Shown here: one piece after another, positions 4,899-30,410 of the stretch
How the letters are laid out: every line of letters starts with the position of its first letter
How positions within the stretch are numbered: the stretch's first letter is position 1
Assembly (NCBI GenBank): GCA_015061615.1
Contig: SUWE01000006.1
Location: 1-64,000, forward strand
Source: Lentisphaerota bacterium
GTDB lineage: Bacteria; Verrucomicrobiota; Lentisphaeria; Victivallales; Victivallaceae
DNA: 64,000 bases
Direction of reading: 5' to 3'
Position numbers and translations under genes: made by a program
Notes under the pieces: generated by a model
What the model saw: the letters and a program-made list of their open reading frames with translations, nothing else
Told to the model about the DNA's origin: nothing
The model's database searches: none

Positions 4899-5687
4899 TT
4901 ACAACGAAAGTCTGGTCGGAACACCTTTATCATAGTAAAATTCAAAATATTTGACTTCTCCCATATGCCAGAGCAGATATTTGGAATCAACACCGCCTTT
5001 GATATCGCCGACTTCGATACTGTGGGCTGAGCCGTCAAGAGTGGAAACATTGGCACTCTTGCCGTGACGGAAGTCGGGCTGACCGTAATTTTCACTGTTT
5101 CCATGCCAGATAGTCCCCGCCATCATACCTTTGGCATTAAGACTGTCGCCAGAGAAGATAACAGCAGAGTGTGATGATATCTTTTTGTCTGAAACATCTG
5201 CGGGGAATCTGAAAACAGAGGTTTTGAAAAGCGGTCCGTAATATCCCGCGATGGCATCAGCTTTATATCCTTTGAACTCCATATTTGCATCTGAAAGATC
5301 TTTGGAAGGGCAGAAGAACAATTCAGGGATCAGCGTCATATCACTTTTTGAACCGTAAGTGGCACTTTTCAAAGTCGCCAGACTTGCTCCGCCGACATAG
5401 GGTATAAGGTGATAGAAAGCATTGTTGTAAACAGGGTCGCTGTGACGGAGACTGCCGCCGCGGTGATCCCACATGCCGTCATTATCTTCGCCGTACATCT
5501 GACCGCCCACGATAAGCTGTTTGTGATTGTTGATACAACTGGCACTGCGGCCGCGTTCACGGGCGCTGTTCAATGCCGGCAGCAAAATAGCCGCAAGGAT
5601 CGCGATTATCGCGATGACAACGAGGAGTTCTATAAGAGTAAAGCATGTGTGCTTTACTCCGCCATGGCGGAGAGTCGATCTTTTCAT
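4899..5687 (-). CDS. Pseudopilin, prepilin-type N-terminus, DUF1559-like
   Basis: This is a 262-aa type II secretion/type IV pilus-like pseudopilin. The start at 5687 is chosen because a good AAGGA ribosome site precedes this ATG; an upstream TTG would add 23 residues without a better site. Residues 16-35 hold the class III signal [19 protein letters not shown] with Glu at +5, then [17 protein letters not shown]. The residue before the cleavage site is Cys instead of the usual Gly. The C-terminal region ends with [11 protein letters not shown], close to the xDGH motif seen near the end of DUF1559 proteins. It is the first gene of a four-gene minus-strand unit with its own promoter just upstream. 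The likely role is in the cell envelope, presenting or exporting secreted enzymes. Confidence 0.88.
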
Positions 5688-5727
5688 TTTTCCTTTTTTC
5701 CTTTCTTGTTGGGGGGGACTGGAAACT

Positions 5728-11848: not shown

Positions 11849-11924
<76 letters not shown>

Positions 11925-12321
11925 TTTTTTTGTAAAAAAAATGGCAAACGAAGACGCAAGTCTTCACTTCACTGAGCCGTCAGGCTCAACTTCACATCTT
12001 CACGCGGCGAAGCCGCTCTTCACTAAAACACCGTTCTGACTTGCTTGTGAAGTCGCTCATTTCATTCGCTTGTGAAGAAGTCGGCTTACGCCGCCTGTGA
12101 AGTTGTTCACTCGAGCTGCTTTTTTTTGTAAAAAAATGGCAAACGAAGACGCAAGTCTTCAATTCACACTTTTGCAAATTGCCGTTAAACGGCAATGCAA
12201 AAGTTCTTCACATCTTCACGCGGCGACAGCCGCTCTTCACAAAATTACAGTTTCGACTTGCTTGTGAAGTCGCTCATTTCATTCGCTTGTGAAGAAGTCG
12301 GCTTACGCCGCCTGTGAAGTT
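11925..12321 (+). repeat. Two-copy hairpin array punctuated by CTTCAC/GTGAAG
   Basis: Two tandem copies (11925-12120 and 12121-12321) each begin with T-run, GTA, A-run and ATGGCAAACGAAGAC. Within each copy, short perfect hairpins are separated by CTTCAC in the left half: GAAGAC/GTCTTC, TGAGCC/GGCTCA (copy 1 only), GCGGC/GCCGC. In the right half they are separated by GTGAAG: CGGC/GCCG and a CGCTCATTTCATTCGCTT spacer. Copy 2 replaces the TGAGCC hairpin by a long one (12169-12203). CTTCAC and GTGAAG are complementary, so each copy can fold as a multibranched structure. No coding sequence is seen here. Confidence 0.8.
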
Positions 12322-12435
12322 GCCCTCTCTGGCGAGAAAATATGTTAATCATTATTTCTTCAACAGTTTGTAACATTCCTCACTGTAGATTTTGCAGCTG
12401 GTTTGATTCATAGTCTGTTTTGCGGCACACCAAAT

Positions 12436-12489
12436 CTGTCCGACCTGTCCGACTTGTCCGACCTGTCCGACCTGTCCGACCTGTCCGAT
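12436..12489. repeat. 9-bp tandem repeat, six units
   Basis: Six head-to-tail copies of CTGTCCGAC (unit 3 starts with T, unit 6 ends with T). It lies 100 bp beyond the stop codon of the minus-strand AraC gene, in sequence without any supported gene. Units of this kind change copy number by slippage. Confidence 0.9.
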
Positions 12490-29776: not shown

Positions 29777-30011
29777 GGGGTACGGGGGCGGCGGGCTGCG
29801 CCCGAGTGAAGTGCAGCAAAGCTGCGTGAAGTGTTGCTGCGCAACTGTGAAGTTTTTTTGCCTTGCGGCAAAAGTGAAGTGCTTGCTCACGCAAGTAAGG
29901 ATGTGTAAAATAAAAAAATAAAAAAACGGTGCGACAGCACCGTAAAGGGCGGTGCAAACCGCCCGCCGGAGTCGAATCACCCAAAAGTTACGATGAAGGC
30001 AGTATGAGGCA
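29777..30011 (+). repeat. 235-bp duplicated block, copy 1, with GTGAAGT-punctuated hairpins
   Basis: Nearly identical to 30176-30410 (offset 399 bp). It holds five hairpins: CGGGC/GCCCG, GCAGC/GCTGC, GTTGC/GCAAC, TTTTGCC/GGCAAAA and CTTGC/GCAAG. GTGAAGT separates each from the next. After these come a terminator hairpin (29926-29943) and a second hairpin GGGCGG/CCGCCC. No coding gene is supported. Confidence 0.88.
29911..29943 (-). terminator. Terminator-like hairpin in duplicated block, copy 1
   Basis: ACGGTGC/GCACCGT stem, GACA loop. On the minus strand it is followed by a long T-rich run. An identical one lies at 30310-30342. Both could stop transcripts leaving the creatininase gene. Confidence 0.7.
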
Positions 30012-30178: not shown

Positions 30179-30410
30179 GTACGGGGGCGGCGGGCTGCGC
30201 CCGAGTGAAGTGCAGCAAAGCTGCGTGAAGTGTTGCTGCGCAACTGTGAAGTTTTTTTGCCTTGCGGCAAAAGTGAAGTGCTTGCTCACGCAAGTAAGGA
30301 TGTGTAAAATAAAAAAATAAAAAAACGGTGCGACAGCACCGTAAAGGGCGGTGCAAACCGCCCGCCGGAGGCGAATCACCCAAAAGCTCCGATGAAGGCA
30401 GTATGAAGCA
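30176..30410 (+). repeat. 235-bp duplicated block, copy 2
   Basis: Second copy of 29777-30011, with the same hairpins and GTGAAGT separators. Differences are clustered near its end (for example 30370-30391). Confidence 0.88.
30310..30342 (-). terminator. Terminator-like hairpin in duplicated block, copy 2
   Basis: Copy of the hairpin at 29911-29943. It is the first terminator met by transcripts leaving the creatininase gene on the minus strand, about 170 bp past its stop codon. Confidence 0.7.

Follow-up and report, generated by a model that had tools for sequence, protein, structure and literature searches.

The locus downstream of the tRNA-Arg(TCT) gene raises the question of what a dense array of hairpins, punctuated by the complementary words CTTCAC and GTGAAG, is doing directly behind an intact tRNA. 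The stretch of DNA analyzed (the window) comprises 64,000 nucleotides of contig SUWE01000006.1 from an uncultured Lentisphaerota bacterium (class Lentisphaeria), and its own genome (G000) consists of 2.71 Mb in 109 contigs and is 85% complete.

Two tandem copies behind tRNA-Arg(TCT)

The sequence-only reading of this locus had placed the start of the array at the base after the tRNA CCA, and position 11925 is indeed that base. The same reading described two tandem copies (Table 1), and these are well defined, as their 48-nt starts are 92% identical and their 102-nt ends are 91% identical. Each copy follows one plan: a T7-A7 palindrome comes first, then a head hairpin (the most conserved hairpin of the family) and two further hairpins spaced by CTTCAC. 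An unpaired apex leads over to the right half, which contains three GTGAAG words. The left-end palindrome of copy 1 extends 5 nt into the tRNA, whose last 5 nt are mirrored in the right arm of the palindrome. The CTTCAC words of copy 1 are at 11962, 11967, 11990, 11998, and 12018 and its GTGAAG words at 12047, 12072, and 12097; those of copy 2 are at 12206, 12214, and 12235, plus ATTCAC at 12162, and at 12264, 12289, and 12314, respectively. The two words occur 57 times in the whole window versus 31.5 expected, a number reached by no shuffle, and 14 of them fall within these 400 nt. Just before copy 2, the sequence CGAGCTGC resembles the tRNA end CGGGCTGCCA and is possibly a decayed direct repeat, since tRNA 3′ ends separate tandem copies in relatives. 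An Rfam scan of the window identified only the tRNA and no known RNA family for the array.

Table 1. Features of the hairpin-array locus (window coordinates).
Feature	Position	Strand	Basis
tRNA-Arg(TCT), intact including CCA; insertion site	11849..11924	+	ARAGORN, Rfam RF00005
Left-end palindrome of copy 1, TGCCATTTTTTTGTAAAAAAAATGGCA	11920..11946	+	Inverted repeat I3, 12-nt arms, 100% complementary
Copy 1 of the hairpin-array element, non-autonomous, without IVP (PF05635) gene	11925..12119	+	Direct repeats D2-D4; fold z -4.45
Head hairpin GAAGAC-GCAA-GTCTTC	11950..11965	+	Pattern present in 18 of the 289 phylum genomes
Left half of copy 1, containing five CTTCAC words and the hairpins TGAGCC/GGCTCA and GCGGC/GCCGC	11962..12023	+	Sequence, fold
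Apex between the halves of copy 1, unpaired or weakly paired	12024..12046	+	Sequence, fold
Right half of copy 1: three GTGAAG words	12047..12102	+	Sequence, fold, word count
Right end of copy 1	12103..12119	+	Sequence; inference from tandem copies of relatives
Copy 2, right side truncated, end approximate	12120..12335	+	Repeats; fold
Long hairpin of copy 2 (ACTTTTGCAAATTGCCGTT/AACGGCAATGCAAAAGT), replacing the TGAGCC hairpin	~12168..12204	+	Fold
Left half of copy 2: CTTCAC words with hairpin GCGGC-GACA-GCCGC	12206..12240	+	Sequence, word count
Right half of copy 2: three GTGAAG words	12264..12319	+	Sequence, word count

Both copies fold better than 200 of 200 dinucleotide shuffles (z -4.45 for copy 1 and -6.13 for copy 2). 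The replacement of the TGAGCC hairpin by a long hairpin in copy 2, as described in the sequence-only reading, is evident, and the stems are unrelated between slots and between copies. The further claim that hairpins separated by a constant hexamer make up both halves holds for the left halves but mostly not for the right. Over all elements examined, left-half segments are hairpins in 37 of 50 type A cases (MFE ≤ -3) and 17 of 19 of type B, and right-half segments in only 12 of 38 (median z -0.15) and 1 of 11, respectively. In the right half of copy 1 the first spacer (TCGCTCATTTCATTCGCTT, 12053-12071) forms no hairpin and the second (GGCTTACGCC) does, and AAGTCGGCTTACGCCGCCT is a hairpin. G-U pairs make up 5 of 493 pairs in the array hairpins versus 10.5% in the tRNA stems of the same loci, a comparison of predicted structures in which the pairs are not independent; this near-absence may fit DNA hairpins better than RNA but is suggestive only. 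Some arrays carry nested palindromes, one of ~30 nt (TCCCGCCATAGC...GACGGCGGA) forming a mini-element between CTTG and TGAAG (L007, L008, and L085) and another (GGGATAGCCTGAATGAAATGAAGGCAATCCC) within the T7-A7 loop at the tRNA junction (L008, L060, and L076).

Other repeats were observed in the window. Just downstream of the element, at 12437-12489, a 9-mer (CTGTCCGAC) is repeated six times in tandem, and short tandem words also adjoin PF05635 genes elsewhere (GTACGGATGA in L038, TTAGTGA in L260, and a GAAAG-type word in L257). Two hairpin arrays of the right-half type, with GTGAAG only and a GGATGTG tail, are located at 29806-29879 and 30205-30278, 399 bp apart, between tsaD and another gene. 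They have neither a tRNA nor a CTTCAC half, and their 26-nt core is in no other fetched locus.

A family of elements at tRNA 3′ ends

A search of 289 phylum genomes used the pattern of the head hairpin alone, and every match was fetched; this tRNA-blind test avoids query bias, and the reversed control pattern gave no match in the same genomes. The further copies anticipated by the sequence-only reading are present in both its own and related genomes, and their position behind a tRNA is not accidental. Of the 49 matches, all from related Lentisphaeria, 38 have an intact tRNA on their own strand no more than 400 nt upstream, and none has an intact tRNA downstream. A remnant resembling a tRNA 3′ end, such as CCGCCA-T8 or CTACCACCCCA-T8, precedes 10 of the other 11. 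All six loci in the window's own genome follow a tRNA, those at the other five loci being tRNA-Ser(CGA) twice, Ser(TGA), Ser(GCT), and Pro(CGG), and most tRNAs of that genome have no element. An intact tRNA lies no more than 400 nt upstream of 55 of the 70 distinct heads collected from relatives, and 41 of these 55 heads start 22-35 nt past the CCA. The targeted tRNAs are Ser, Pro, His, Arg, Val, Phe, Ala, and Glu, and the same tRNA has the element in some relatives and lacks it in others. Exact matches to the array core were found in sheep colon, yak cecum, and other Lentisphaeria MAGs. The exact 31-nt core has no match in IMG/VR, where a GTGAAAT pattern retrieved one orphan left-half array and two unrelated repeats.

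Directly behind tRNA-Pro, -Glu, and -Gln (L003 at 5508-5720, L019, and L122) lies an inverted-repeat element of another kind (T8GCC ... GTGAGCAATCC ... AGCAAAAAGCAA), and tRNA 3′ ends are therefore a hot spot for several repeat families. At L051 (1032-1200) a GIY-YIG-like ORF starts (MYYVYIL) shortly behind a tRNA-Cys and is perhaps a further tRNA-end element in this order.

Evidence of insertion and transfer

A comparison of the tRNA-Pro(TGG) locus in the window's genome with that of a relative (G001) provides an empty and an occupied site, the relative alone carrying a clean 487-nt insertion. The pair is 77% identical up to the tRNA end and 92% identical over 347 nt beyond the insert, which has an 11-nt direct repeat, CACCCCGACCA, at both ends. 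The sequences show insertion to be exact, at the 3′ ends of tRNAs. In this pair, and as the CCGCCATTTTT repeats, the tRNA 3′ end is directly repeated on both sides of the element. Such direct repeats went undetected in most of the short loci; automatic detection using the last 9 nt found them in 6 of 55 elements, many of these loci being short. Moreover, many assemblies of related genomes are broken at the elements themselves, and right ends are known for a minority. Tandem elements in relatives have tRNA-end repeats between them. They look like insertions or duplications of whole elements, and additional palindromes, present in some arrays, resemble separate nested inserts. The proposal in the sequence-only reading that the element grows by adding hairpins is not supported.

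The mirror in the left palindrome varies with the identity of the tRNA. The right arm of the palindrome mirrors at least 5 nt of the 3′ end of its own tRNA in 30 of the 34 non-His, non-Phe elements close to a tRNA, and the mean mirror length over all 43 elements is 4.1, compared with 2.9 (maximum 3.5 in 2000 trials) when tRNA ends were randomly dealt. Arrays that are about 90% alike carry different mirrors in different tRNAs, and hence the mirror was made at insertion or selected afterwards.

The protein encoded by complete copies, a PF05635 23S_rRNA_IVP (S23)/TIGR02436 four helix bundle protein (IVP), is 97 and 94% identical to the copy in the window's genome in two genomes of other genera (G110 and G102, respectively) and 94% identical in one of another family (G058). 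The TsaD identities of the same three genomes are 70, 63, and 57%, which indicates recent horizontal movement between genera and between families.

Complete elements and their protein

In a complete copy the order is tRNA, array, terminator, PF05635 gene, variable passenger ORF, conserved right end, and direct repeat of the tRNA 3′ end. Long copies have past the array a terminator-like hairpin (GGCGGCAAGCCGCC-TTGATTTTT), a promoter-like site, and then the IVP ORF of ~120 aa. The passenger ORFs behind it range from ~130 to 800 aa and differ between copies, and none of those listed was recognized as an integrase when read by eye. The right end is a common module of ~110 nt that trails different passengers and ends in GAATGGCGGGGGAAGATAAAA..CAG; next comes CCGCCATTTTT, which repeats the end of tRNA-Ser. 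The right end also holds an inverted copy (ATGGCGG..CCGCCAT). Since neither IVP nor this conserved right end is present in the window copies, they are non-autonomous. The sequence-only reading had missed that the element targets tRNA ends, has direct repeats, and is linked to an IVP gene with passengers. It was right in describing a modular element whose complementary punctuation is conserved and whose hairpins are interchangeable.

The array is upstream of 22 of the 28 distinct IVPs of the subfamily, and 19 of these 22 also have a tRNA. IVP is the sole protein conserved in the element, and its median dN/dS of 0.15 (223 pairs) shows purifying selection. Five array-bearing genomes are without a close IVP (G005, G008, G013, G020, and G022; 76-89% complete). 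The AlphaFold model of IVP has four helices (pLDDT 95), and its best structural matches are 2RLD (S23 family, TM about 0.9) and 2GSC. The match to Avd (4DWL) has a TM of about 0.7 and is below significance by E-value. A ribonucleoprotein complex that contains Avd has been solved (8UB7), and by analogy this likeness would favor RNA as the form of the array that is recognized. Known phages and plasmids gave only distant relatives of IVP, and there are no close relatives in IMG/VR. Some PF05635 genes without arrays (L256, L282, and L283) are located within defense-type operons, where they lie between the S and R subunits of a type I RM system, between DUF1156 and Swt1-HEPN genes, or between genes for a helicase and an N6-methylase.

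Punctuation words and IVP clades

IVP clade A is associated with CTTCAC/GTGAAG arrays and throughout with tRNA-Ser, and clade B (~70% identical) with CTTCAT/ATGAAG arrays, its subclades being found in tRNA-His, -Pro, and -Val. The left halves of clade B arrays contain 35 CTTCAT words and no CTTCAC, and the right halves 28 ATGAAG words and no GTGAAG. As read from the sequences, this switch amounts to compensatory change at each rung of the left-right pairing that was proposed, and the pairing of complementary words suggested in the sequence-only reading thereby gains support from a second family in which both sides have changed. The co-variation extends from clade and word to subclade and target tRNA.

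An unbiased word test, in which any 6-mer and its complement both had to be repeated in the 450 nt upstream of each IVP, showed that related IVPs have arrays with CTTCAC, GCTTCA, AACATC, TGATAT, TGAAAT, TTCATT, and AGCGGA, mostly with at least three copies of the word and at least three of its complement. AACATC is found behind tRNA-Thr in another Lentisphaeria genus (L209), TGATAT behind tRNA-Arg on a human-gut Clostridia-like contig (L258), TGAAAT behind intrinsic terminators (L259 and L279), TTCATT behind a tRNA-end remnant and terminator (L280), and AGCGGA on a Treponema plasmid (L257); the hosts of L258, L259, L279, and L280 were assigned by sequence character and not by taxonomic record. 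Distant PF05635 proteins gave background values and no array in this test, and no punctuated array was detected by it at the PF05635 genes of cyanobacteria, Chloroflexota, and Bacteroidota plasmids. Some of these genes sit within defense operons.

A proposed mechanism and its rivals

We propose that the window feature represents two tandem, protein-less copies of a site-specific mobile element, and that a partnership of IVP with the array is the best overall explanation, in which we place middling confidence. The identity of the feature as a mobile IVP element is very probable; that the IVP-array partnership drives mobility is put forward more tentatively, as plausible but somewhat short of an even chance. 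IVP would be the element's own mobility factor and would recognize the array through its family-specific word pair, either in the form of a read-through RNA from the tRNA or as hairpins of single-stranded DNA. It would then bring the element to the tRNA end, where host or other recombination enzymes would do the joining, and the window copies, which keep the putatively cis-acting array, would be moved in trans. An IVP-array complex is the simplest reading of the mobility machinery because IVP is the sole conserved protein and changes together with the array. The element would be tolerated because the tRNA and its CCA stay intact and the array sits in the trailer that is removed by RNA processing. 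That no catalytic recombinase was recognized among the element ORFs listed counts against this model, as do the array-bearing genomes without a close IVP, though these are incomplete, and the automatic detection of direct repeats in only 6 of 55 elements.

A serious rival, albeit one that we consider less likely than not, is a tyrosine recombinase acting in trans (XerC/D, or a phage or ICE integrase) that uses the tRNA 3′ end as its attachment site, with IVP and the array as passengers or accessories. tRNA 3′ ends are classical integrase sites, and the direct repeats (11 to 22 or more nt), the inverted tRNA-end sequence near both termini, and a repeat at the native flank of one locus (L003) that matches the empty-site tRNA better than the present tRNA, as if supplied by the insert, all speak for it. 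However, no integrase gene was seen by eye in or beside the elements read, the repeat length varies widely, and an integrase leaves unexplained both the constant retention of the array and the joint change of its word with the IVP clade. It is improbable that the element is instead copied from RNA in a retro- or SINE-like manner, whereby a read-through tRNA-array RNA would be reverse transcribed in trans with IVP acting like Avd. The target-site repeats of variable length, the start fixed at the tRNA end, and the resemblance of the IVP fold to the Avd of diversity-generating retroelements (PMC10053308) are consistent with it, but RVT_1 (PF00078) is absent from several element-rich genomes, including G026 (97% complete), G017 (95%), G021 (94%), G012 (93%), and G011 (91%), and dependence on a reverse transcriptase was rejected on these grounds.

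The remaining readings are less probable still. A domesticated structure linked to the tRNA and useful to the host, such as a terminator or an element for tRNA 3′ maturation or stability, might account for the location on the tRNA strand, the mirroring of at least 5 nt of the tRNA end (30 of 34 non-His, non-Phe elements), and the terminator-like hairpin behind the array of complete copies. It is very unlikely, as the presence of the element at the same tRNA varies between relatives, the identity of the tRNA varies, most tRNAs of the same genome are without it, and IVP transfers between families. Least likely is that a REP-associated Y1 transposase (RAYT) moves the arrays as REP/BIME-like palindromes. 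The short hairpins, tagged in one orientation and then in the other (hairpin-CTTCAC, then GTGAAG-hairpin), do resemble REP tags (PMC3733652), but their stems show no conservation, the element inserts at tRNA ends and is linked to an IVP, and PF01797 was not found in G000, G012, G015, G018, and G021. Dependence on RAYT was rejected since Y1_Tnp is missing from several element-bearing genomes.

The IVP-array reading ties a PF05635 protein to a definite candidate nucleic-acid partner, and this offers a route to the function of proteins that are widespread and whose function, to our knowledge, has been unknown for decades since their discovery in rRNA intervening sequences. Each IVP clade has its own complementary word pair, and thus binding and mobility are directly testable. 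If true, the elements would represent a new tRNA-targeting type of mobile DNA that has no need for a recognizable reverse transcriptase or REP transposase in the genome, and that carries passenger genes between families of gut bacteria.

Comparison with known systems

In the open-access literature, no paper was found that connects PF05635 or the "four helix bundle protein" with repeat arrays or the ends of tRNAs and, judged against those papers, the element is apparently an undescribed kind of mobile DNA. It shares with REP/BIME sequences tagged hairpins in both orientations and many genomic copies, but differs in having a constant tag with unrelated stems, a fixed tRNA-end site, and a linked IVP in place of the Y1 transposase, which several element-bearing genomes lack. 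Like the islands and satellites integrated by tyrosine recombinases, it has a tRNA 3′-end site, a tRNA-end direct repeat, and cargo; unlike them, no integrase was recognized in it, the array is always retained, and the array-IVP unit is only ~0.8 kb. IVP has the same fold as the Avd of diversity-generating retroelements (TM about 0.7), to which PF05635 is homologous (PMC10053308), but several element-rich genomes are without reverse transcriptase and no template or variable repeat was seen.

Parallels in gene content come from the intervening sequences (IVS) of 23S rRNA in Coxiella, Leptospira, and others, which are excised by RNase III and encode an S23p of unknown function, the ORF in Coxiella being directly preceded by GACAGAT heptamer repeats (PMC4990558). 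In both cases a small selfish insert at a stable-RNA gene has one conserved ORF, PF05635, with short repeats just upstream; PF05635 is encoded by the complete relatives and is absent from the window copies. The element described here differs in its site, at tRNA 3′ ends and not within 23S rRNA, and in its long punctuated hairpin array, separate promoter-like site, terminator, passenger ORFs, and tRNA-end repeats. As a tentative generalization, held with less assurance than the role of the IVP-array partnership in mobility, IVP/S23 four-helix-bundle proteins may be word-specific nucleic-acid partners of punctuated hairpin arrays and constitute with them a recombinase-less mobile class that inserts at RNA 3′ ends (at the ends of tRNAs in Lentisphaeria and, in Clostridia-like contigs, at terminators as well), of which the 23S rRNA IVS would be one degenerate branch.
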